Source: Phycisphaerales bacterium (GTDB lineage Bacteria > Planctomycetota > Phycisphaerae > Phycisphaerales > UBA1924). From it: 64,000 bases of DNA. Position numbers and translations under genes: made by a program. The stretch is taken from positions 248,001-312,000 of the forward strand of contig JAJDDK010000004.1 in assembly GCA_029260345.1 (NCBI GenBank), given 5' to 3'. Position 1 is the first letter of the stretch. Each line of letters begins with the position of its first letter. The notes under the pieces are model-generated. The model was given only the letters and a program-made list of their open reading frames with translations. It was not told the DNA's origin and made no database searches. This document shows, one piece after another, positions 6,073 through 62,551 of this stretch.

Positions 6073-7623
6073 GTGCCCATTCTGCTTTGGATCATCGCCG
6101 GCGTCCTCACCCTCCTCGGCGGCGCCGCCCTCTGGCGCGGTCTCCGCGGCCGCCGCCTCAACGACCACCCGATCTGCCGCAAGTGCAAATTCGATCTGGT
6201 CGGTGTGTATTCACCGAACAACAAAGATGCTGGCGGGACGGGTGTCTCGCCCGTCCAAACAAACGAAGACCACCCACGCTGCCCCGAATGCGGCCGCGAT
6301 CTGAACCGCAAGCGCGCGGTCCGCCACGGCGAGCGGCGACGACGCCCGCGATTCATCATTGGTGGCGCTCTCTTATTTCTCATCGGCGTGAGCGCCCTCG
6401 GCGTGGCGACCTGGAAGAACGCATCCAATTTCGATGTGAACACCATCAAGCCCGAGTGGTTGCTGATGGTGCAACTTCACGATGCGTCATGGAGACCAAA
6501 CGACGCACAGTTCCGCGAATTGCGAAGACGTCTCGGCGCCGGCTCCCTCAGCGATGGGACTCTGCGCAAGCTCGCCATGGAGGGTCTGGCGCGGCAGTCC
6601 ACCGATCGCCCCTTGCCAAATGAATCCGGGCAACATGGCCGCCGCGTTGAAGAATGGAAAGTCGAATGGGGCTCAATCATCGTTCGGGCAATCCGTCGTG
6701 GCCTTCTCAGTGACGGCGCGATCATCCGCTTTCTCTCAAACGCCATGTTTGTAACGACGTCGGCTCATCCAACCACACCAATCGGCATGCCACTGCGGCT
6801 CAACATCAGCTATCAAACAGATCTCGCCGGGTACCACAACAATCCGCCCGTCGTTCACGCAGAATTCGCCTTCATATCCGTAGACGGTGAAATCATTGCG
6901 CGCAATGTCGGCGCGCACAACATTCGATTGTGGGAGCATTCCGGCGGCTTTGGAACGCGCCTCAAAGTCCCGTTCGAGAACATCGAACCTGGCTTGCACC
7001 GTGTGGGCGCCACCATTCGATACCGCTTCTACGACGACTGCGGCGGACGATACGAACCGCACGAACATGCAACAACTCCTCGCGTTGAATGGCGCGAGAC
7101 GCACGTCTTTGACGTGCACATTCAACCGGCAGGTACGCCGGAATATGACTTGATCGTCCGTCCGGAGGATCGCGCCGCTATGCACGATGGCGCGGCGGCG
7201 CAATTTGATTCCATTCGTGTCACGGAAGGACATTGGTCGCCTCAGGCGAAGGAGCGACTTACTTTGCCTCCATTTCCTCACCCTGTGTGCGCTGAAGTCA
7301 TTCTGCGATGCACTGAAGGGGACTTCGTGATTCAGCACTTGATTTTTGACTCGCACACTGGAGGCTCCTTTATTCCAAAGGGTCCTGAAGAGTTCCCAAC
7401 ATTGGACGAGTCAGTCACGATCATCCTGCGCCCAAAGCCTGAACTCGCAGAGCGGCATCTGCCGCTGCAAGCGATGTGGGGAGAGGACATCGTGCTCGAA
7501 AACGTGCCCGTCAATCGACTGACGCCGGCGGAAGTCGAGGCGGAGCAAGCGGAACGTCGCCGCGCCATCGAAGAGCTGTATCGCAAGAAATACGAAAAGG
7601 AATCCAAAGGCGGTGGCGCATGA
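6073..7623 (+). CDS. Zinc-ribbon membrane protein, paralogue 1 of 3
   Basis: The protein has 516 residues, with a GTG start at 6073 about seven bases after a GGAGG site. Order: a membrane helix (residues 1-22), a basic loop, a zinc ribbon with Cys pairs near 35/38 and 70/73, a second helix (about 95-113), a conserved N-T-I-K-P motif, then about 380 residues probably outside the membrane. The loop between the two Cys pairs contains Gly-Thr-Gly-Val-Ser-Pro-Val, encoded by a dispersed inverted repeat. It is the first gene of a three-paralogue operon. The function is unknown and I recognise no enzyme motif in the large domain. Confidence 0.8.
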   Translation: MPILLWIIAGVLTLLGGAALWRGLRGRRLNDHPICRKCKFDLVGVYSPNNKDAGGTGVSPVQTNEDHPRCPECGRDLNRKRAVRHGERRRRPRFIIGGALLFLIGVSALGVATWKNASNFDVNTIKPEWLLMVQLHDASWRPNDAQFRELRRRLGAGSLSDGTLRKLAMEGLARQSTDRPLPNESGQHGRRVEEWKVEWGSIIVRAIRRGLLSDGAIIRFLSNAMFVTTSAHPTTPIGMPLRLNISYQTDLAGYHNNPPVVHAEFAFISVDGEIIARNVGAHNIRLWEHSGGFGTRLKVPFENIEPGLHRVGATIRYRFYDDCGGRYEPHEHATTPRVEWRETHVFDVHIQPAGTPEYDLIVRPEDRAAMHDGAAAQFDSIRVTEGHWSPQAKERLTLPPFPHPVCAEVILRCTEGDFVIQHLIFDSHTGGSFIPKGPEEFPTLDESVTIILRPKPELAERHLPLQAMWGEDIVLENVPVNRLTPAEVEAEQAERRRAIEELYRKKYEKESKGGGA

Positions 7624-9059
7624 TGTTGTGGATTGCTTTTTTCCTTCTGTTTGCCCTCGCCCTCACGACCCTCTTCCTCGGCCTGCGCGGCAAGCGCGTC
7701 AACGACCACCCAATCTGCCGCAAATGCAAGTTCGATTTGGTCGGCGTCTACGCGGCGGAAAACAAAGCCACCGGTGCGACGGACGTCCCGCCCGTCGTGG
7801 CGAACGACAACAGCAATCGATGCCCCGAGTGCGGCCGCGATCTGAGCCGCAAGCGCTCCGTGCGCTTCGGCGCGCGGCGAAAGCGCCCATTCCACCTCTC
7901 CACCGCCGCCGCGCTGCTCTTCCTTTCCATCGGCATCGGCGGCGCCTGGGGCTGGGGGCGCGCCAACACCTTCAACTGGAACACGATCAAACCAACGTGG
8001 TGGCTGGTGATCGAAGCCGACAGCGCTGACACGGCCATCTCCGGCGCTGCGCTTGATGAACTCGTGCTTCGAGCGGCGAAACAAGAACTCCTGCGCGGCA
8101 CGCACGAACGACTCGTGCAGCGCGCCCTCACGATTCAAGCCGATCCAATTGCGAACTGGCACACTAGTTGGGGTGATTTGGTCGAGATCGCAATGTCGCA
8201 GGATTGGCTCTCGGACGACGACACGCTCGCCTATATCAAGAATGTGCCGGGGATCATGGCGCGTGTGCGCTCACCAGTTGTGCATGGCGGCGTCACATCA
8301 CTGAGCTTTGTTTTCGCGCCATACCGCGCCGGCAGCGGCGACCATCGTGCGTACCAGTTGCTGGGCGAACCACTTGAACTGCGCCTCAACGGCGAGGTCG
8401 TGCCGCACCAAACTGGGTATGCCTCATTCTCACCCGGTCGTGGTACACCGAGCTGGGCGATGAGCGATGTCCTCCCCACCACAATGCCCGGCGACAACAC
8501 GGTGGATGCGACCATGCAACTTCGCCTGCGTCGCACGGCGCGTATGGGTCCCGGCGGCGCCGGCATTGGCATCTCTGATATCCCGCCTGAGCCCTCAGAG
8601 ACGGACTCCAAACCTTGGACAGTCACTCTGTCCACCACCTTTACCGTCCTCGAACCCGGTGAGAGCGATGTCACCCTCATCGCGGCGCCGCAACATGCCG
8701 ACGCGATTCGCAATTCCATCCGCATTGATCGTGCGCACATCGAGCGCACGCCCGAAGGCGACACAGTGCAAATCAGCGTGATGATCTCGCAACCCCCCAT
8801 AGACGTTGCATTCCAGATCCTCGCGCGCAAAGGAGACGTCGAAGTGCCGCTCGGTCTTTGTCATGGTGGCCCGAACGCCAGCATGGGGACTGGCGGACGT
8901 GCGACCGAAGTAGATATTGATCTCAATGGCGCTCAACTCATTTTCCGAGGCAGCGCCGCGGCCGCGCGCCGATCGCACACGATGCGCGAAATCTGGGACG
9001 GCGAGATCGTGATCGACGACGTGGTCTGGGAAATCGAGGAGCCGCAGGACGAATGGTGA
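7620..9059 (+). CDS. Zinc-ribbon membrane protein, paralogue 2 of 3
   Basis: The architecture matches the preceding gene: an N-terminal helix, a split zinc ribbon (HPICRKCKFDL then RCPECGRDL), a second helix, an FNWNTIKP motif and a large extracytoplasmic domain (479 residues). I place the start at 7620, where ATG overlaps the upstream TGA as ATGA; a longer in-frame opening to 7476 only reads through the neighbour. The inter-knuckle loop here is Gly-Ala-Thr-Asp-Val-Pro-Pro-Val, a decayed version of the repeat-derived loop in paralogues 1 and 3. The function is unknown. Confidence 0.8.
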   Translation: MMLWIAFFLLFALALTTLFLGLRGKRVNDHPICRKCKFDLVGVYAAENKATGATDVPPVVANDNSNRCPECGRDLSRKRSVRFGARRKRPFHLSTAAALLFLSIGIGGAWGWGRANTFNWNTIKPTWWLVIEADSADTAISGAALDELVLRAAKQELLRGTHERLVQRALTIQADPIANWHTSWGDLVEIAMSQDWLSDDDTLAYIKNVPGIMARVRSPVVHGGVTSLSFVFAPYRAGSGDHRAYQLLGEPLELRLNGEVVPHQTGYASFSPGRGTPSWAMSDVLPTTMPGDNTVDATMQLRLRRTARMGPGGAGIGISDIPPEPSETDSKPWTVTLSTTFTVLEPGESDVTLIAAPQHADAIRNSIRIDRAHIERTPEGDTVQISVMISQPPIDVAFQILARKGDVEVPLGLCHGGPNASMGTGGRATEVDIDLNGAQLIFRGSAAAARRSHTMREIWDGEIVIDDVVWEIEEPQDEW

Positions 9060-10633
9060 TGACCTGGACGATTGTTGGGCTGTTGCTTCTTCTCGGCGCA
9101 GTGGTGATGCACGCGGGCCTGCGCGGCAAGCGCATCAACGACCACCCCATCTGCCGCAAGTGCAAGTTTGATTTGATCGGTGTTTACCCACCGGAAAGCA
9201 CCGGCGACGGTGGGACGGGCGTCTCGTCCGTCCAAACAAACGAAGGTCACCCCCGCTGCCCCGAGTGCGGCCGCGACCTTTCCCGCAAACGCGCCGTCCG
9301 CAACGGCGCCCGCCGCAAGCGGCCAGTCGTTATCACCGGTGGCGCCCTCTTGCTGCTGCTTGCGATTGGAGTCAGCGCCGCCTGGGGCTGGGGACGCGCC
9401 AACAGTTTCAATTGGAACACGGTCAAACCGGTCTGGCTGTTGCGAATGGAAGCTGAAGGCGCCAACGACGGCGCGGCGGATGCAGCGCTCTCCGAACTCA
9501 TCGCGCGCGCAAGTCAAGGCAATCTGTCTGCGAGCGCCCACCGTGCGCTCGCACAGCGCGCCATGGAGATCCAAAGCGATTTCGACCGCTCATGGCGCCC
9601 CCTGTGGGGGAATCTCATCGAAATAGCGCATCAATCCAAGGTCATTTCTGATGATGACTTTGCACTGAGTCTTCAGCGCAGCACGCAAATGTGGACGTTC
9701 ATTGACCCGTCAACCGTCCCGTCAGATTTTTCCTTTGCGCTGAACCGTCCGCCAGATCGTCCAAATCCACAAAAGCCACTGTACGAAGGCGAACGCCAAT
9801 ACCTCGTGTTTTCCTTTGGCATGCGCGGCGCCGCGTCGACCGATCTCTTCATGCGCCCAGTCCTCGAGACGTTCACCGTTGACGGAAAAGAGGTCAATGC
9901 AGGCATCGGTATGCACCAACAAATGGGAATGACTGGCGCCAGCGGCTTCAACAATGTGAGTATCACGATGTTCGAACCCATGCCCGCCGGCGTTCATGAA
10001 GCGGTTTCGACGTGGAGAATCCATGTATTCAAAGACCTCGTGGTACATCGCGGCAAATGGGGCAGCGGCACGGTAGCCATCGACTCGAAAACCGGCGAAC
10101 CTCTGGAGCTGTCGCTCCCATTCCGTAAACGCGAGCACACGCCTGTCGTCGATTTTCCCATCACGATAAGTTTTCAGTTCACCGTCGAGCCGCAACGCGA
10201 GCCGCGGACGGTGCAATTGGTGCGCGATCCGGAATTGAAAGCGCTGGTCGAGGAATCGATCAGTATTCAATTCAAGGAAGTGCGCCGCGAAGGCGAGTAC
10301 ATTCACTTTCTAATGGAGCGCAGCGTCAAACCGCTGCCGGTGGCAATTGCGTTTGACGTCTTCATTCGCGACGGTGACCAAGAGTGGCCGTCGGCGCCGC
10401 TGCACATGGCGCTGGATGGTGAATTGCGAATGCGAAGCATGCGAATCCTCACCAAGCCCGAGGAATTCGGCGTAGCATCCGATCACGTCGACCTCATCCT
10501 ACGGCCCAACCCTACCTCCGTTGAACTCACCGAAGGCTTCGACGCGATCTGGGGTGAAGAAATCATTCTTCGCGGCGTGCCCATTGAATGGATCACTGAG
10601 CTAGAAGAATCATGGAAGGTCAAAGAGCAGTAA
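9053..10633 (+). CDS. Zinc-ribbon membrane protein, paralogue 3 of 3
   Basis: This third tandem paralogue has 526 residues and its start overlaps the previous stop by seven bases. Membrane helix, split zinc ribbon, second helix and FNWNTVKP motif are conserved, while the large C-terminal domain has diverged strongly. The inter-knuckle loop again carries the repeat-derived Gly-Thr-Gly-Val-Ser-Ser-Val. The 3' end overlaps the convergent pirin gene by 24 bases. The trio probably arose by tandem duplication; the three outer domains may bind different partners (inference). Confidence 0.8.
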   Translation: MVMTWTIVGLLLLLGAVVMHAGLRGKRINDHPICRKCKFDLIGVYPPESTGDGGTGVSSVQTNEGHPRCPECGRDLSRKRAVRNGARRKRPVVITGGALLLLLAIGVSAAWGWGRANSFNWNTVKPVWLLRMEAEGANDGAADAALSELIARASQGNLSASAHRALAQRAMEIQSDFDRSWRPLWGNLIEIAHQSKVISDDDFALSLQRSTQMWTFIDPSTVPSDFSFALNRPPDRPNPQKPLYEGERQYLVFSFGMRGAASTDLFMRPVLETFTVDGKEVNAGIGMHQQMGMTGASGFNNVSITMFEPMPAGVHEAVSTWRIHVFKDLVVHRGKWGSGTVAIDSKTGEPLELSLPFRKREHTPVVDFPITISFQFTVEPQREPRTVQLVRDPELKALVEESISIQFKEVRREGEYIHFLMERSVKPLPVAIAFDVFIRDGDQEWPSAPLHMALDGELRMRSMRILTKPEEFGVASDHVDLILRPNPTSVELTEGFDAIWGEEIILRGVPIEWITELEESWKVKEQ

Positions 10634-11308
10634 CTCCGTCTCTTCCCCCGCTTCGATCGCCACAAGTTCTTCCTCCGTTACTCCCACCGCATCTCCGGCG
10701 CCAAGCTCCTCACCATTCACCATCGCGCGGCCGCGCACGATCTGCACCCACGCGCTGCGCCCCGGCGCCAGTTCATGCGTCACACCTTTGCCGGCGCTCA
10801 GCAACGTCCCCAGCAGCGCGGCGTCCTGATGCATCGACAACGATCCATCGCGCCCGTCGCTCGACACCAGCGTCACGAGTTTGTCGCGTCGGTCTTCAAG
10901 CGGGAAGTGCTTTTCTTCGTACCCCGGCTTCAAACTGCGCTCCGACGGGAACAGCCAGATTTGCAGCAGATACGCGCCTTCATTTTCTGAAGGGTTGAAT
11001 TCGGAATGCGTGACGCCCATGCCGGCGGTCATGCGCTGGATGTCGCCGCGCCGGATGACGGACTGACCGCCGCTGGAGTCTTTGTGCGCCAGCGCCCCGT
11101 CGATCATGTACGTGATGATCTCCATGTCGCGGTGCGGGTGTTCGGGGAAGCCGGCGCCGGGCGCGACGATGTCTTCGTTGATGACGCGAAGGACGGAGAA
11201 GTGCGTCCATTCGGGGTCGCGATAATCACCAAAGCTGAAGGTGTGTTTGGTGTCGAGCCAGCCGAAGTTGAGGGCGCCGCGGTCTGAAGAGCGTCGAATG
11301 GTGATCAT
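10610..11308 (-). CDS. Pirin-family bicupin protein
   Basis: This 232-residue cytoplasmic bicupin is of the pirin/YhhW type, some members of which have quercetin 2,3-dioxygenase activity. The N-terminal cupin carries the iron-binding set: HPHRDME near residues 57-63 and GVTHSEFN near 98-105. The second cupin is degenerate, as is usual for the family. The ATG at 11308 gives the typical Met-Ile-Thr-Ile-Arg-Arg N-terminus. Its tail overlaps the end of the convergent zinc-ribbon operon. The physiological role is not deducible. Confidence 0.9.
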   Translation of the reverse strand: MITIRRSSDRGALNFGWLDTKHTFSFGDYRDPEWTHFSVLRVINEDIVAPGAGFPEHPHRDMEIITYMIDGALAHKDSSGGQSVIRRGDIQRMTAGMGVTHSEFNPSENEGAYLLQIWLFPSERSLKPGYEEKHFPLEDRRDKLVTLVSSDGRDGSLSMHQDAALLGTLLSAGKGVTHELAPGRSAWVQIVRGRAMVNGEELGAGDAVGVTEEELVAIEAGEETELLLFDLP

Positions 11309-11333: not shown

Positions 11334-11356
11334 ACACGGGCGAGACGCGCGTGCCG
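11334..11356. repeat. Short inverted repeat (ACGGGCG/CGCGCGT-type copy)
   Basis: This copy of the dispersed ACGGGCGAGACGCCCGT element sits in the gap between pirin and gatC. The right arm has one change (CGCGCGT). Further right, the gap holds two hairpin-capable stretches: one around 11410-11436 rich in GTGGGC/GCCACCC, and one at 11455-11487 with CGTGG...CCACG ends. I see no gene between 11309 and 11527; the short frames there are repeat-derived. Confidence 0.6.
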
Positions 11357-11527: not shown

Positions 11528-11854
11528 TTACGCGCCGCCGCCGTCGCCGAGCACTTTGGGCACCTTCACGAATGGCGGGTGTGACCCCGGCGCCATCTTC
11601 ATGAGGTCTTCCGTCGTCAGCCCTTCGCGCGGCGTGTCGTCATCCACGCGGTTCGTCGCGTCCATCGGGTTGTTCAGCGGCTCGACATCTTCAAGATCAA
11701 GTTCGCGCAAGCGTTCGATGTAGCCGAGCACCGCCGCGAGGCGCGTCGTCTGCGTGCGGATCTCGTCATCACTGATCGCAAGCCGCGACAGGTGTGCGAC
11801 TTTGCGGACCACGTCTTCGCTGAGCGGCTCCGGCGCTGGGGTGGTGTCGGCCAT
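11528..11854 (-). CDS. gatC: Aspartyl/glutamyl-tRNA amidotransferase subunit C
   Basis: GatC is the small subunit that holds GatA and GatB together in the tRNA-dependent amidotransferase. The 108-residue product has the family pattern: VRKVAHLSRLAIS at the N-terminus, the central ELDLEDVEPLNN, and DDTPREGLTTEDLMKMAP. The ATG at 11854 is chosen because the family begins just before the Val-x-x-Val-Ala-x-Leu-Ser-Arg helix; the frame runs open to 12142 but without family sequence. It lies on the same strand as gatA, separated by the pirin gene and the three-paralogue operon. gatB is not in the window. Confidence 0.92.
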   Translation of the reverse strand: MADTTPAPEPLSEDVVRKVAHLSRLAISDDEIRTQTTRLAAVLGYIERLRELDLEDVEPLNNPMDATNRVDDDTPREGLTTEDLMKMAPGSHPPFVKVPKVLGDGGGA

Positions 11855-12008
11855 GGGCGCATGGTAGTCGCGAACGCGGCTCGCATGTCTCCAGTTGACC
11901 GCTCGCCACCGGTCTCTACGATCCGAGCGGTTCGCGGGGCGATGTGCCCCGCGGACTGGACCATGAACGCCTGGGCGGGGCGGAAGCCTCGCCGCGGAGA
12001 TTTCCGGC

Positions 12009-12938
12009 ATGCTTCCCAAGCCCCCACCAAAAGAGGGCGCCCTCGGTTTCTTGTATGTCCCGCCGTATCGCGTGCAGGGATTTTCCGTCGCCGGTGAAGC
12101 GACGGTGGTGCAGGCGCCGGAGCTCGATATCTGCTTTGACATGGGCTATTGCCCGCGAGCCGCGCTCGCGAGCAAGTTCGTCGCGATCAGCCACGGGCAC
12201 ATGGATCACGTCGGGGGCCTGGCGTACTACTGCTCGCAGCGCGTCTTTCAGGGCATGGGCCCGGGAACGATCATCTGCGATGCGCGCCTCGCGCCCGCGA
12301 TCAAACGCATGATGGACGGCTACATCGACCTCGAGCAGCAGGTCACGCCGTACGAGATCGTCCCGCTCGAGCCGGAGCAGGAATACGAGATCAAGAACAA
12401 CGTCGTCGTGCGCGGCTTCGAGCTTGAACACGGCGCGCCCGCCTTCGGCTACAGCGTCATCGAAAAGCGCAGCAAGCTGAAACCGGAATACGTCGATTAC
12501 CCGCAGGAAAAACTGCGCGAATTGAAAGAGCGCGGCGTCGAGATCACGCGCATTCTCGAAATCCCGCTCATGGCGTATCTCGGCGACACAGCGCCGTGCC
12601 CGCAACTCGTGCGCGAAGACGTGCGCAAAGCGCAGGTTGTCATCAGTGAATGCACGTTCATCGATCCTGACCATCGCAAGCGCGCCAAGATCGGCAAGCA
12701 CTTGCATGTTGAAGACATCGCGGAATGGCTGCCGGTGCTGGAATGCAGCGCGCTGGTGCTGATTCACTTGTCGCGGCGCAACACCATTGCGCAGGCCAAG
12801 CGCGAACTGCTTTCACTGGTCGGCAAGGAAAAAGCGGAGCGCGTGCTGTTTTTGATGGATCAGCGCGGCTCGCGCTTGCGCTACGAAGAACAAGTCGCCG
12901 CGGCGGAAAAGCTGGCGACCGATGCACAACGCGACTGA
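12009..12938 (+). CDS. Metallo-beta-lactamase-fold hydrolase (RNase Z-like)
   Basis: The protein has 309 residues. The metallo-beta-lactamase zinc motif HGHMDH is at about residues 58-63 in ISHGHMDHVGGL, and later elements fit the fold: an ELEHG-like strand, YLGDTAPC and IHLSRRNT. The His-x-His-x-Asp-His form with a following Gly-Gly-Leu resembles RNase Z/ElaC-type enzymes that cut tRNA 3' trailers, but the exosite arm of true RNase Z is not evident, so the activity is uncertain. It lies between gatC (divergent) and dnaA (same strand, about 220 bp gap). No strong ribosome-binding site precedes the ATG. Confidence 0.8.
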   Translation: MLPKPPPKEGALGFLYVPPYRVQGFSVAGEATVVQAPELDICFDMGYCPRAALASKFVAISHGHMDHVGGLAYYCSQRVFQGMGPGTIICDARLAPAIKRMMDGYIDLEQQVTPYEIVPLEPEQEYEIKNNVVVRGFELEHGAPAFGYSVIEKRSKLKPEYVDYPQEKLRELKERGVEITRILEIPLMAYLGDTAPCPQLVREDVRKAQVVISECTFIDPDHRKRAKIGKHLHVEDIAEWLPVLECSALVLIHLSRRNTIAQAKRELLSLVGKEKAERVLFLMDQRGSRLRYEEQVAAAEKLATDAQRD

Positions 12939-18564: not shown

Positions 18565-18946
18565 GGCGGGATTTACCACAGAGGCGCAGAGATCGCAGAG
18601 CGAAGATTGGGCGCGCCTATTCGGGTGCAGTTCGTCATCGATCAATCGTTGCGCCGCTCGCCGCCGCCTCCGTCTCCCCGCCGCTCCACACAAGTATTCT
18701 CCTCCGTGCTCTCTGCGCCTCTGCGGTGAAAAATCCCCGTTCGGTCGGGAACGAATCACACAAAGCGCCGGACGCCGTGGTTCGCGGCGAAGCCGAGAGA
18801 CACGAAGAAGCGCATAGCGCAACGATGACGTCCGCGCGCCACACGGGCGAGACGCCCGTGCCACCGACTCTCGTCTTTTCGACCTCTCTCCCCCTGGCGC
18901 CTGGCTCCCGGCCCCTGACGCCTCGCCTCCGACAGGAGGCGCACCC
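18565..18946. repeat. Intra-operon gap with inverted repeat pair and short repeat
   Basis: No gene is visible. TACCACAGAGGCGCAGAG (18574-18591) and its near-complement CTCTGCGCCTCTGCGGTGA (18711-18729) form a 120-bp-spaced inverted pair. The same sequence occurs at 52208-52283 and 53076. A perfect copy of the ACGGGCG-AGA-CGCCCGT element is at about 18842-18858. An AGGAGG ribosome-binding site at 18934-18939 serves the next gene. Whether transcription crosses this gap is not known. Confidence 0.7.
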
Positions 18947-21220
18947 ATGACCTTCCTCAACCTCGGCCTTTTCGCCGCCGGCGCTGCGGCTGTCTCCATC
19001 CCGATCATCATCCACTTCCTGTTCCGCAGGCGGCGCAAACCTGTCGTCTGGGCCGCGATGCGCTTTCTCATCGAGGCGTACAAGAAACACCAGCGCCGCC
19101 TCAAACTCGAACAGTGGCTGCTTCTCGCAACGCGCTGCCTGCTTCTCCTATTGATTGCGCTGGCGATCGGTCGCCCGGTTGCGGAGTCCGCCGCGCAAGC
19201 CCTCGGCCTCGGCGGTGGGCGCACGATTTACTTCGTCGTGGACAACTCCCTCGCCGCGTCGGCGCGCGACATCGCCGGCGACGGCCGCTCTTCACTTGAT
19301 CGCCAAAAAGAAAAAGCGAGTCAACTCATCGATGCGCTCGGCTCAGGCGATCGAGCCGCGCTCATTTCACTCGGCGCGCCCGCACAACCCATCGTTGTGC
19401 CCCCCTCTGCTGACCTCGCCGCCGTGCGCGGCCTCATCGAATCACTCGAAAACACCGACGCCCGCGCCGACCTCGCCGGCGCTTTCTCCGCCATCTCACG
19501 CGAACTGCGCGAAGACCCTGACCGCAGCGGACAAGCCGTCGTCGTCGCGCTGTCCGACTTCCGACTCGGCGCGGCGGATGTCTCACGCCCGCTCGACGCC
19601 GTGTTCGCCGAAATCCCGCGACTCAAACTCAGCGCTTCGCGACCCGCAGACGCCCCTCTCGGCAACGTGCAGGTGATCTCCGCCGAACCGCTTCGTCGCA
19701 TCGTGCTCGCGCGGGACGCCACCGGAGGCGCTGCGGTCGATGTGCGCGTGCGCCTGCGCCGCACCGGCGCTGCCGTTGGCGAATCCGGCGTTTCCACCGT
19801 GCGTCTCACCATCGAACGCGCCGGCGGCGAGCCTGCCACCTTCGCTTCCACACAAGTCCGCTGGAGCGCCGGTCAATCCGAAGCGGACGTTGTCCTGAGC
19901 GCGCCCGTTGCGAACCTCAGCGAGAACGGCGTCGCCGCAATTGTTGCGTCGATTGATCGCGATGCGATCGAAGGTGACAACCGATTTGCTCGCCCCGTGC
20001 AGGTGCGCAGCGCTGTGCGCGTTGGTGTGGCCGCGCGTCGTCGCTTCGGCGCCCTGCCTGCCCCCGACGCGCTGCTTCCCGAGGACTGGCTGCGACTCGC
20101 GCTGGCGCCCTCCGACACCGATCCAATCGAAGTTATCGACGTCGACCCAAACGCGATCGACACACCAACGCTTGCGGCTCTCGACGCCATCTTCCTGCCT
20201 CGACCCGATCTCATTGATGAACCCGCATGGCGGCGCATCGGCGCCTTTGCGCGATCCGGCGGCTTGGTGTTCGTTTCACCACCAACCGAAACCACCGTGC
20301 ATCTCTGGTCAGACCCGATGGCCCGCGCGCTTGGTTTGCCCTGGCGCATCGTGCGCGAAGCACAATCGCTCGGTGAAGGCGAACCGCTTTCAGATGAACA
20401 GCCGCGCAGCCCGATCTTTGAAATGGTGCAGAGCGAACTGCCGGAGCTGGCCCGCTCCGTCACCGTGTTTCAAACATTGCCCATCATCGAAGGCGCGGAC
20501 GCCCCCGGCATGCGCCCGCTTCTTGTGCTTGAAGACGAATCAACGTGGTTGATCGCCGCGCCGCCGGGCCGTGATGAAAGCGAAACCACGGAAGAAGGCC
20601 AGGACAACACCGAAAGCGCGCGAGGCCTCGTGCTGTATCTCGCCAGTGCGCCGGCGCTCACCTGGACGGACCTCCCTGCGCGCCCCTTCATCGTGCCGCT
20701 GCTGCAAGAGCTCGTCAGGCAAGGCGTCGGCGAAGCCGCGGGAGGCAGCGTGTTCACCGCCGGCGAACGTTTGCAACCACCGGCGCGCACGGCGGAACTT
20801 GTGCCGCTCAAGGATGAACAGGACCGCTCGCGCCTCTCCGTCGCGCCCAGTGGCCTGACCGTTGAACCCGTGCGCAACGCCGGACTCTGGCAAGCCATTG
20901 ATCGCCAAAGCGCCGCGCGCGGCCTCGTCGCCGTCAACGCCGACATCAGCGCCGGGCGCACCGAAGTGCAGCCCGCCAGCGCCGTGCGCGAATGGCTCCT
21001 CGGCAGCGGCGTCGCCGGTGATGATTTCGCCTGGATCAGCGAGGCAGACTCCGATTCATCCGGCGCCACGATCGCGCAAACCGCTGACAACAGCGCGTGG
21101 TTGAGCTATCCGCTGCTCATCGCCGCGGCTCTCATCGCCCTTCTTGAACTCGCGCTCGCACGTTTATTCAGTCACGCATCGATCAAACCGGCGGCGTCCG
21201 CCACCGGAGGCAGCGCATGA
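18947..21220 (+). CDS. BatA-type N-terminal membrane protein with vWA-like core
   Basis: The protein has 757 residues, starting at ATG 18947, seven bases after AGGAGG. The N-terminus matches the BatA/aerotolerance region: helix 1 (about 7-25), Arg-Arg-Arg-Arg-Lys-Pro, then helix 2 (about 58-75). A vWA-like domain follows (YFVVDNSLAAS, where the MIDAS Ser set is partly degenerate), then beta-rich sequence and a C-terminal membrane helix near 715-740. It is probably anchored at both ends with the large domain outside. Its ATGA overlap with the next gene indicates coupled translation. Confidence 0.85.
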   Translation: MTFLNLGLFAAGAAAVSIPIIIHFLFRRRRKPVVWAAMRFLIEAYKKHQRRLKLEQWLLLATRCLLLLLIALAIGRPVAESAAQALGLGGGRTIYFVVDNSLAASARDIAGDGRSSLDRQKEKASQLIDALGSGDRAALISLGAPAQPIVVPPSADLAAVRGLIESLENTDARADLAGAFSAISRELREDPDRSGQAVVVALSDFRLGAADVSRPLDAVFAEIPRLKLSASRPADAPLGNVQVISAEPLRRIVLARDATGGAAVDVRVRLRRTGAAVGESGVSTVRLTIERAGGEPATFASTQVRWSAGQSEADVVLSAPVANLSENGVAAIVASIDRDAIEGDNRFARPVQVRSAVRVGVAARRRFGALPAPDALLPEDWLRLALAPSDTDPIEVIDVDPNAIDTPTLAALDAIFLPRPDLIDEPAWRRIGAFARSGGLVFVSPPTETTVHLWSDPMARALGLPWRIVREAQSLGEGEPLSDEQPRSPIFEMVQSELPELARSVTVFQTLPIIEGADAPGMRPLLVLEDESTWLIAAPPGRDESETTEEGQDNTESARGLVLYLASAPALTWTDLPARPFIVPLLQELVRQGVGEAAGGSVFTAGERLQPPARTAELVPLKDEQDRSRLSVAPSGLTVEPVRNAGLWQAIDRQSAARGLVAVNADISAGRTEVQPASAVREWLLGSGVAGDDFAWISEADSDSSGATIAQTADNSAWLSYPLLIAAALIALLELALARLFSHASIKPAASATGGSA

Positions 21221-34987: not shown

Positions 34988-36544
34988 TCAGCCAGTCCAA
35001 TTGGCCAATAGTTGCGCAAGATCAGCGCCATCGACGATGCAGTCTCCGGTGAGATCCGCCGCGCACGGTGGTGGGCACGGGGCGCCGCAGACTCCCCAGT
35101 TCGCAAGCAGGTTCGCCAGGTCGGCGCCGTTCACAAAGCCGTCGCCGTTCAGATCCGCCGGACCGGCGCTCGTGAAGATGTCGCAATTGTAGAGCGGCGG
35201 CCCAACTCCAGCCGCGCCCAGTGCTGCGAGTTCGACCACGATCGACGCGATTACGTTGTTCCCTTCCGTGTCCATCGGCGCCGACATGGGCTGGCACACC
35301 ATTGCGAGCGCCGGGCCATTGGCGCCTTCAATCGTTTGCGCTACGGTCACCTGTGTCAGCGCAACGGGGCTGGAGGCATTGAGCGTCATTGCGTCTGAGT
35401 TTGCGCCAAAGATCACAAAGCATTCGGTCGGGTCAAAAATTGACGCCTTGCTCAAGTGCGGCGTCAGTCCGTCCGGATTGAACCGCACGCCTGTTGTGAA
35501 CGCCGCGGCCGGGATGGACGGGTTCGGCGCCTGCACGACACCATTTGATGTCGGGTGGTAATAGATTGAATACCCGGAGCTCACAGAATCAACAGTCATG
35601 GCGCCGCCGACGATGGTGGTCGTGCCGGTGGGGCCGCCGGTTGGCGGCGTGGCGACGATGCCAAAGGTGTAATGCGTGCCATCGCCATCAAACGCGCCGT
35701 TGAATTCAGGACTGACCGTGTCATCGCCGGGAAGAACACCGGAATTGTCCGCGACCGACGCCTGCACGTTCGGTGAATCGCCATCCGGTGCGGGCGTGCC
35801 GCCCGAACCGAAATTCTCTCGCCACAGCGCGTAGTCAATCGAGTCCACGACCATGTCGCCATTGCCATCCGCCGCCAAACCCGATCCGGTTTGCCCAAGT
35901 GATTCGCGCCAAATGGCGTAGTCGACTGAATCCACCACACTGTCGCCGTTGTAGTCGCCCGTCAGCCCGCCTTCGGGCCGGCTTGTGCCGAACTGCGACA
36001 GCGCATCGGTCGGCTGCGCAAAGGAGCCAACCAGGGTGAGGAAGTTCACCGGGCTGGACCCGATGATGCTCTGATTGAATGTGCCGGAGCACGTGTTGCC
36101 ACTGAAGTCCATCGTCGCTTCGCCAAGGAATGCGAATGTCTCATTATCAAAAATGGGAGCAAATCCCGGCGTGCTGATTTCATTGAAAATATCAATGAAA
36201 ACATCGCTCCCGAATCCAGAGATCTTGGTGAACTCTGAAAATCCATTCTGCCCGGGGGTGACGCCCGTCGCACTCGATTGATCCGTGTCGATCTCCACGA
36301 ATCCGGCAACACTGTTTGTCGTCATGGCCGACGGAGCCGCGATGTTCTGAGCAAACACAATCGTGAACGTCGCCGTCGTCCCGTCCTGCGAGAGAGACAT
36401 CGATGTGATGTCCGGCAGGAACCCGCCGGCGCCAAACACATCCTGCTCATCACCAGTCGGATCAGTCACGGGATTCGCAAGCGCCGAACTGCCCGCAACG
36501 AGAATTGGAATGACCACGAACCACGATGCGCGCGAATACTTCAT
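34988..36544 (-). CDS. Secreted protein with two different dockerin-type repeat pairs
   Basis: The 518-residue protein starts at ATG 36544, eight bases after GGAGG, ahead of a signal peptide ending near Ala-Leu-Ala. An N-terminal beta domain (about 35-190) is followed by an internal pair of loops of the DYNGDSVVDSVDYAIWRESLG type. A second beta domain (about 270-450) and a C-terminal pair of the DLNGDGFVNGADLANLLANWG type complete it. The internal pair resembles the common planctomycete Asp-Tyr-x-x-Trp-Arg repeat and differs from the tail used by its neighbours. The partner is unknown. Confidence 0.85.
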   Translation of the reverse strand: MKYSRASWFVVIPILVAGSSALANPVTDPTGDEQDVFGAGGFLPDITSMSLSQDGTTATFTIVFAQNIAAPSAMTTNSVAGFVEIDTDQSSATGVTPGQNGFSEFTKISGFGSDVFIDIFNEISTPGFAPIFDNETFAFLGEATMDFSGNTCSGTFNQSIIGSSPVNFLTLVGSFAQPTDALSQFGTSRPEGGLTGDYNGDSVVDSVDYAIWRESLGQTGSGLAADGNGDMVVDSIDYALWRENFGSGGTPAPDGDSPNVQASVADNSGVLPGDDTVSPEFNGAFDGDGTHYTFGIVATPPTGGPTGTTTIVGGAMTVDSVSSGYSIYYHPTSNGVVQAPNPSIPAAAFTTGVRFNPDGLTPHLSKASIFDPTECFVIFGANSDAMTLNASSPVALTQVTVAQTIEGANGPALAMVCQPMSAPMDTEGNNVIASIVVELAALGAAGVGPPLYNCDIFTSAGPADLNGDGFVNGADLANLLANWGVCGAPCPPPCAADLTGDCIVDGADLAQLLANWTG

Positions 36545-62307: not shown

Positions 62308-62551
62308 GCCAAGCCTCCGAGTTCTGAGTGTGTCATTTGCCGCGCCAGCCTACTGCGGCGCGCGGGGAGGCTTCTTGCCAAATCCTGCGATTCTGCGGCG
62401 CAAAGAAAAAGCCCACGACATTGAATTCGTGGGCTGATGGTTTTGATCCCGAGGACTTCGAACGGACGGGCGAGACGCCCGTCCCAGCGCGTCATTTTCA
62501 TTGGGCGCTCAACTCACAGCTCGGAGAGCTGTGCCACCCCGAGGCGCATCT
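62308..62551. repeat. Gap with a copy of the ACGGGCG inverted repeat
   Basis: No gene is supported. ACGGGCG-AGA-CGCCCGT lies at about 62466-62482. Another stretch, AAGCCCACGACATTGAATTCGTGGGCT (62411-62437), forms a hairpin with arms AGCCCACGA/TCGTGGGCT; its loop contains the EcoRI-like palindrome GAATTC. On the minus strand it might serve as a terminator for the IscA-type gene, but there is only a short T-run. Confidence 0.6.

Follow-up and report, generated by a model that had tools for sequence, protein, structure and literature searches.

The closest described systems are the GTAG-tagged REPs and REPtrons (PMC3733652); here and below, comparisons with published work extend only to the accessible portions of the cited papers. 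REP stems are mostly 6-9 bp long with a small loop (PMC3733652), and like the element described in this work the GTAG repeats are short hairpins with a terminal tag, reach a high copy number, occur as dimers, lie in part within the frame of ORFs, including those of tRNA synthetases, and flank RAYT genes. Intragenic GTAG repeats are most numerous in O. terrae (Verrucomicrobia), for whose GTAG-20 elements the tag GTGG is accepted (PMC3733652). Our element differs in its GTGG tag, and RAYT genes within the frame of housekeeping genes are not described in the accessible text of that paper. In the Stenotrophomonas REPtron Sm (group 3 TnpAREP; PMC8266576) the tag likewise directly precedes a perfect palindrome of 16 nt with a 3-nt interruption, but the tag is GTAG, the sequence is different and the transposase, which was studied in vitro, is free-standing. 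Rickettsia palindromic elements (RPEs) are also palindromes in frame within proteins; the short ones carry a CGTC tag and CGTC repeats are without transposase association (PMC3733652), whereas here the element flanks a RAYT in three relatives. The classification of TnpAREP (Quentin et al., 2018; PMC6006769) assigns class 3 mainly to Planctomycetes, Acidobacteria and Proteobacteria, and its tabulated class 2 and class 3 motifs resemble those of the embedded RAYTs reported below. A few unexpectedly long proteins were dropped from that survey as fusions or annotation errors, so that embedded cases would have been lost. The REPIN/RAYT persistence model (PMC8049555) resembles our system in the combination of a single-copy RAYT with a dispersed repeat population; the long-term persistence of REPs and their transposases is debated there.

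The window, that is the whole analysed stretch of 64,000 nucleotides from a Phycisphaerales bacterium, contains a repeat which the first-pass annotation had described as a palindrome with 7-bp arms and a 3-nt loop. The repeat is real, but the element is longer by one stem pair and a tag, and in full consists of an 8-bp stem with a 3-nt loop, preceded on its 5' side by the tag GTGG. In the 3.4 Mb genome ACGGGCGAGACGCCCGT is present in 28 exact and 23 one-mismatch copies, compared with none for a reversed-pattern control. The tag GTGG (CCAC on the opposite strand) was found in 44 of 53 copies, and GTAG is not the tag. The closing stem pair is of Watson-Crick type in 49 of the 53 copies (G-C 32, C-G 12, A-T 5) against 25.5 expected, a value as high being reached in none of 10,000 shuffles. 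The pair covaries irrespective of where a copy lies; with its exception, the majority of stem mismatches in the copies of the window's genome are uncompensated. Inverted pairs of the element occur in loci L032 and L035 of our set and in other genomes as well. Stem, loop and covarying closing pair match REP anatomy, and the repeat is best explained as an element of the REP type. The short stem and small loop satisfy the criterion of the GTAG superfamily, as do the dispersed high copy number and the dimers in opposite orientation; the tag can be accommodated there solely as the GTGG form that PMC3733652 mentions. A tail, TGTG..TTT, beyond the tag is partly conserved in the copies of the window's genome; it was excluded from the element because it is missing in the copy consensus of PNC21, J020 and B63T3L11. 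With a 24-mer and at most one mismatch the element was detected in at least 16 of 101 genomes, the window's own counted, in a patchy distribution.

A search of the window with the 17-mer and up to three mismatches yielded nine matches against 0.70 expected, and none of 100 shuffles reached nine (highest value five). The exact palindromes are each counted a second time through their minus strand, which accounts for two of the nine, and the match at 36252 is weak with three mismatches. The copies previously placed near 11334, 18842 and 62466 were confirmed to within two bases, but the first of them (11336..11352, plus strand) carries one mismatch and is not exact; it lies in the gap separating the ORFs 10610-11308 and 11528-12142. 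The copy at 18843..18859 (plus strand) is exact and is followed by GCCACCG, with the ATG at 18947 located 88 bases on. Likewise exact is the copy at 62466..62482 (plus strand), which has a degenerate tag (CCCAGCG) and is intergenic by a weak codon-usage test.

Three further copies lie in frame within a loop of three adjoining membrane proteins encoded in tandem on the plus strand. Gene 1 (6073..7623) encodes hydrophobic segments, recognized by eye, on either side of a ribbon-like CxxC...CPxC pattern, and a large C-terminal region after the second hydrophobic part. As no Pfam family, zinc-ribbon models included, scored above cut-off for this gene, the cysteine pattern is the sole basis for the label and the domains are termed ribbon-like here. 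The start codon of gene 2 (7620..9059) overlaps the stop of gene 1; the listed ORF starts at 7476, and the start at 7620 was inferred from this overlap and from the alignment. Gene 3 (9053..10633) completes the trio. All three copies are on the minus strand: 6238..6254 in gene 1 (one mismatch, degenerate tag) is read as GGTGVSPV, 9215..9231 in gene 3 (one mismatch) as GGTGVSSV, and 7779..7795 in gene 2 (two mismatches) as GATDVPPV. As the first-pass annotation had proposed, the peptides of genes 1 and 3 are situated between the two cysteine pairs (CRKC and CPEC) and the version of the middle paralogue is decayed.

The identical place of the peptide in all three paralogues could be explained if GTGVSPV were a conserved functional peptide of the ribbon family and the DNA palindrome a mere by-product of its codons. 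That annotation had itself named the observation which would refute an insertion: orthologues that all carry the heptapeptide, without intergenic copies in relatives. A regular-expression search of the window plus 50 loci, in which diverged members may be missed, gave 58 distinct ribbon segments; none of the 55 from other genomes carries the heptapeptide, and copies of the repeat were found in relatives, so that the refuting condition was not fulfilled. The segment comprises 40 amino acids in the three window paralogues and 19-34 in the 55 others (22 in 29 of them), from which we infer that about 18 amino acids were inserted in the trio. In addition, this DNA is also found in intergenic positions and, within unrelated proteins, in alternative frames (DGRDARPT, TGETPVPP, VGRASRP), and its closing stem pair covaries whatever the context of the copy. 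We therefore regard a conserved peptide as extremely improbable and the repeat as inserted. Most simply, on grounds of parsimony, a single insertion preceded the duplication of the trio.

In the whole genome of the window at least 20 of the 53 copies lie in frame within genes, namely 17 in 15 Pfam-supported proteins and the three in the ribbons. Among the 20, 13 are read in the GGTGVSPV frame; many of the genes are housekeeping genes and genes for enzymes, and one copy lies in a phage portal gene (L037). The Pfam scan covered 20 of the 24 listed repeat-bearing ORFs (L011, L015, L017 and L048 were left out) and gave a family for 16 of them. MutL (L041) was excluded from the count because the repeat may be located upstream of the true start. 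The codon-usage test called 13 of the 53 copies coding, 13 unclear and 27 intergenic; the gene 3 copy was classed as intergenic and the gene 2 copy as unclear, and the test is too weak alone, so that the count rests on Pfam and on frame reading. For the Ham1-like protein L039 an alignment with a PDB entry begins only at the repeat, and the insertion was thus not cleanly mapped. The element is open in all six reading frames; provided that the frame is kept and a loop is hit, its insertion would therefore add no more than a short peptide. According to the persistence model, a gene is destroyed when a repeat is copied into it (PMC8049555), an assumption to which the in-frame copies run counter; they also illustrate how short mobile hairpins can extend enzymes with peptides. 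The alternatives raised for the ribbon copies had been exaptation or tolerance, of which tolerance fits better, as no sign of a function of the peptide was found, although its function was not tested.

Numerous copies outside recognised genes and the conserved stem would also be expected of a host palindrome under selection, such as a terminator, an RNA hairpin or a protein-binding site, with the in-gene copies as accidents; supercoiling, termination and mRNA stabilisation are named as proposed roles of REPs in PMC3733652. The in-frame copies in enzymes, the copy in the phage portal gene, the patchy distribution and element-flanked RAYTs suggest dissemination instead, and we judge this interpretation to be unlikely. 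A secondary role of the repeat in the host is not excluded and would be compatible with an element of the REP type.

A candidate source of the element was found in relatives. Three of them (G039, G075 and G063) possess a REP-associated tyrosine transposase (RAYT) with inverted copies of the element on both sides, which meets the definition of a REPtron, and the entire cassette lies in frame within valyl-tRNA synthetase (ValRS). One flanking copy in G063 is changed in both stem arms with the pairing retained. Together with the scattered copies and the patchy distribution, these flanked transposase genes support the earlier designation of the repeat as mobile, the movement itself being inferred.

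The genome of the window contains three Y1_Tnp genes: L049, which is IS200-like, L050, which is class-3-like, and the RAYT L051. The element borders none of these genes within 1.5 kb on either side, so that the definition of a REPtron is not fulfilled for this repeat in the window's own genome. A valS-type RAYT was not found in the assembly (96% complete; best E 0.066), and the ValRS shows no interruption. It could be supposed that one of the three genes moves the element in trans, in which case the copies would not be orphans. L051 lies above the curated RAYT cut-off (99.7 bits) and its frame is open; a hairpin with CCACC after it is situated about 0.2 kb from the frame of L049, and L050 is about 2 kb away from one copy of the element. 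The repeat on the flanks of L051, however, is not this element but GAGCAGTGGCACAC, present in 42 exact copies, and with no flanking copy within 1.5 kb of any of the three genes we consider mobilization in trans possible but doubtful. A mobiliser is thus not shown in the window's genome, and in view of the absent valS-type RAYT and the uninterrupted ValRS its copies look like orphans.

With considerable confidence we favor the explanation that a REP-type element was spread by a valS-type RAYT, entered a ribbon gene once before this was duplicated, and persists in the window's genome as orphan copies. A RAYT of the valS-embedded type, and hence a single-strand transposase with an HUH motif, would cut the single-stranded hairpin and join it at new places, cleavage and mobility being inferred. 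Selection would remove harmful insertions, and those which keep the frame of a loop would add merely a short peptide, usually GGTGVSPV. One insertion may have struck the loop between the cysteine pairs of an ancestral ribbon gene, from where tandem duplication would have brought it into three genes, in which it now appears to decay. The copies of the window's genome are then probable orphans of a lost transposase, the matching RAYT being absent from the assembly. Transposition remains an inference, since a near-identical strain with an empty site is not available and base-level proof is lacking.

Embedding of RAYTs is not confined to the three element-flanked cases. The same ValRS loop carries a RAYT, of one of two types, in at least 19 of 101 genomes. 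The loop was read in 60 of the 101, in 58 by pattern and subsequently in L273 and L281; 12 of 70 loci had no pattern match, namely the ValRS loci L171, L186, L190 and L192, the two then read (L273 and L281) and six that are not ValRS. As the fetched loci were partly picked for long frames, 19 is a minimum and not a rate. We think it somewhat probable that REP transposase genes of the Phycisphaerales and of further Planctomycetota reside in frame inside essential housekeeping genes, chiefly in one ValRS loop, where most frameshifts and deletions would cost the host an essential enzyme, that this loop was captured repeatedly by different RAYT types, and that the repeats, including the membrane-protein copies of the window, descend from such hidden sources. 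An in-frame RAYT within an essential aminoacyl-tRNA synthetase would offer a concrete and testable answer to the question of persistence, the host gene protecting the transposase. Intragenic REPs are already known; for a RAYT within a housekeeping gene, or paired with valyl-tRNA synthetase, no report was found among the titles and abstracts listed in one open library, subscription papers and supplements being outside this scope.

At E 0.001 the Pfam family Y1_Tnp was recognised in 17 embedded members out of 19; the HUH-type motif is present in all 19 domains and the tyrosine motif in 18 (missing in G003). The curated RAYT model (NF047646, cut-off 80 bits) was run on three of the embedded domains, the other 16 not being included, and scored 99.8 bits for G039, 96.8 for G075 and 31.9, below cut-off, for the class-3-type domain L297. 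A structure prediction for the ValRS-RAYT of PNC21 from a three-row alignment (mean pLDDT 31.9, pTM 0.24) was not used. The names class 2 and class 3 were assigned to the embedded domains by motif alone, DHVH/WQ/Y..NP corresponding to the class 2 type and NHVH/W[TA]/Y....Q to the class 3 type. In the RAYT tree, from which no number of captures was deduced because just seven free genes were included, the ten class-2-type embedded domains cluster with modest support (0.76), and embedded and free members of the class 3 type are intermixed. Among the matches listed, further RAYTs lie in frame within LeuRS, AlaRS and RdgB.

The dispersed inverted repeat put forward in the first-pass annotation is real. 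Its core 17-mer ACGGGCGAGACGCCCGT was matched nine times in the window with up to three mismatches, far over the chance expectation of 0.70; two of these matches merely re-read exact palindromes on the minus strand, and a third is weak. The whole genome (G000; 3.4 Mb assembly in 8 contigs, 96% complete) contains 28 exact and 23 one-mismatch copies, 51 together, against 0 for the backward control. From the surroundings of 53 copies (up to two mismatches, taken from 40 fetched stretches and the window) a conserved unit N-ACGGGCG-AGA-CGCCCGT-N'-CCACCG was deduced. The outer stem pair N/N' is G-C in 32 copies, C-G in 12, A-T in five, G-T in two and unpaired in two; Watson-Crick pairing in 49 of 53 copies compares with 25.5 expected and was reached by none of 10,000 shuffles. 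CCAC, a 5' GTGG tag on the other strand, is intact in 44 of the 53. The element is a tagged hairpin and thus has the anatomy of a REP. Changes within the stem are mostly single and without compensation, as expected of decaying copies. None of the six frames contains a stop codon.

Three window genes for membrane proteins with a ribbon-like CxxC...CPxC pattern (6073..7623, 7620..9059 and 9053..10633, all on the plus strand) are tandem paralogues. The distance from the first to the second Cys pair is 40 amino acids in all three proteins, versus 19-34 in all 55 matching segments of other genomes (22 in 29 of them, 24 in ten). The extra stretch of about 18 amino acids contains the repeat, and among the matches listed several relatives align as two blocks flanking it. 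This bears out the proposal that the ribbon peptide is an inserted repeat; the copy of the middle paralogue, with two mismatches the furthest of the trio, is decayed as had been claimed. A single insertion preceding the duplications is the simplest history. Relatives occur in at least 48 of the 101 genomes searched, G000 counted. No Pfam zinc-ribbon model exceeded its cut-off for the window proteins, and the label "zinc ribbon" is based on the cysteine pattern alone. Relatives also carry the family in tandem arrays, the largest with eight copies (G009:C13, G067:C63 and G079:C15; loci L144, L145 and L147).

Frame reading and a Pfam scan, which took in 20 of the ORFs around copies, placed 17 copies in frame within 15 recognised proteins of G000. 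Two copies each are carried by NuoG and MetH. Single copies occur in RlmN, squalene-hopene cyclase, a DUF58 protein, 2-oxoacid dehydrogenase E2, a PrpD-like protein, Ada, a MurD-like Mur ligase, a BioF-like class I/II aminotransferase, a phage portal protein, DsbH-thioredoxin, Ham1/RdgB, a DPP-IV-like peptidase and a FabA-like protein; names going past the Pfam titles are our own assignment. Pfam matches enclose or bracket 14 of the 17 copies, although for L016 and L031 the second matched stretch came without coordinates; the other three (one in NuoG, plus L038 and L046) lie beyond the last match. With the ribbons, at least 20 of the 53 copies are in frame, read as GGTGVSPV-type (13), DGRDARPT (four), TGETPVPP (two) or VGRASRP (one); the two other frames are used by none of the 20. 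Possible N-terminal cases (MutL in L041, L036 and L009) were excluded as uncertain. In L010, L031 and L038 further repeat-like peptides (PLPLGEG..., SPERERGV) stand close to the element, so these genes seem to be invaded by several families of repeats.

Among the matches listed, the tagged 24-mer with at most one mismatch occurs in 16 of 101 genomes including G000: 60 copies in G039 (J020), 43 in G000, 34 in G075 (PNC21), 18 in G071, 11 in G013 and one to four in eleven further genomes, with none in 85. G039 and G013 (Phycisphaerales DLM2.Bin69) belong to the family of G000, G075 and G063 (Phycisphaerales UBA5793) to its order. A scan of an 84,980-species collection, which may omit records of the window's own genome, listed 79 stretches, 59 of them under planctomycete titles. 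The remaining 20 comprise seven from Vicinamibacteraceae and others from acidobacterial, verrucomicrobial, Chloroflexi, Zixiibacteriota, Omnitrophota, Syntrophaceae or unnamed bins; since these are metagenome bins, stray foreign contigs are possible.

A gene with the Pfam transposase domain Y1_Tnp, classed as a REP-associated tyrosine transposase (RAYT), lies between inverted element copies in G039 (3+3), G075 (1+2) and G063 (1+1). One of the G063 copies is changed in both arms with pairing retained (ACGGCCG-AGA-CGGCCGT). The domains of G039 and G075, the only two tested, scored 99.8 and 96.8 bits with the NCBI RAYT equivalog model (cut-off 80). In all three genomes the open frame carrying the RAYT is valyl-tRNA synthetase (ValRS, valS) on either side. 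PNC21 ValRS aligns with the solved Thermus enzyme 1gax at 4-393 on 3-362 and 656-699 on 376-419, which places 262 residues where 1gax has 13.

The loop from DQW to DWCISRQ was read in 60 of the 101 genomes; 19 contain an in-frame RAYT domain (L273-L281, L284, L286, L290, L294-L300), and the other 41 loops measure 39-120 amino acids without one. A wider search added G407. Two types share the loop, ten domains with DHVH/WQ/Y..NP and nine with [ND]H[VI]H/W[TA]..HGSTR/Y....QG; all 19 retain the HUH-type motif, and 18 of them the tyrosine motif as well. By a strict hairpin scan, eight of the ten DHVH-type domains have hairpins on both flanks, usually GTGG-hairpin upstream and hairpin-CCAC downstream, with stems varying by genome. 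G003 has one at one flank only, and G016 none, an imperfect pair appearing in a separate flank search. The same scan found no such hairpins around the nine [ND]H[VI]H-type domains. Within one genus, G063 carries the DHVH type and G067 and G071 the other, whereas their upstream ValRS parts are 84-90% identical; the inserts of G067 and G071 are 51% identical, their upstream parts 90%. The loop of G013 holds a bare repeat copy and that of G012 a related peptide.

G000 itself has a repeat-free ValRS loop of 60 amino acids (L165). The best match to the G039 RAYT domain in this genome reached only E 0.066, and no element was found within the 1.5 kb flanks of its three Y1_Tnp genes. Its own RAYT L051 (G000:C6:148449-149109) is flanked by a different REP-like repeat, GAGCAGTGGCACAC, with 42 exact copies genome-wide, several forming inverted pairs about 60-65 bases apart. 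With ValRS uninterrupted, no G039-type RAYT and L051 beside another repeat, the element is probably an orphan in G000, unless its RAYT is encoded in the 4% absent from the assembly or a different enzyme moves it in trans.

What the analysis shows is a tagged hairpin that has spread, copies of it lying in frame within genes, its insertion into the ribbon loop and, in related genomes, a RAYT flanked by it inside valS; the route between them is inferred. The RAYT domain would be produced as part of ValRS or cut out of it, may recognise the single-stranded hairpin via stem and tag by analogy with TnpAREP enzymes, and would join it to new sites, selection presumably retaining low-harm insertions. 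Such recognition is described for TnpAREP enzymes (PMC8266576): one system depends critically on the GTAG tag, and in two others the tag can largely be replaced. A RAYT inside an essential gene would be protected from loss.

Classic in-frame palindromes are the RPEs of Rickettsia. Intragenic REPs, also in tRNA synthetases of other bacteria, REPtrons and a GTGG variant of the REP tag in O. terrae have already been described (PMC3733652). Quentin et al. left out over-long TnpAREP proteins (PMC6006769). No report of embedded RAYTs was found in one open-access library, judged mostly by titles and abstracts; the embedded transposase is the part exceeding the known intragenic REPs and REPtrons.

Other long RAYT-containing frames (L329, L337, L338, L341, L342) may be simple fusions. 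By Pfam and frame reading, in-frame RAYTs also occur in leucyl-tRNA synthetase of G048 and G008 (L322, L306), alanyl-tRNA synthetase of G146 (L335) and Ham1/RdgB of G014 (L305). For G048, Pfam gave no Y1_Tnp at E 0.0001, and the call is based on a match to alignment A2 (E 1e-44). In valS, [ND]H[VI]H-type RAYTs often stand between other repeat peptides, TSRDREGA-like before and PLPHGRGS after (L274-L278, L295-L297), which suggests, at the peptide level only, another repeat family. The valS loop of G010 (L307) is occupied by tandem EAPARSA-like units without a RAYT.
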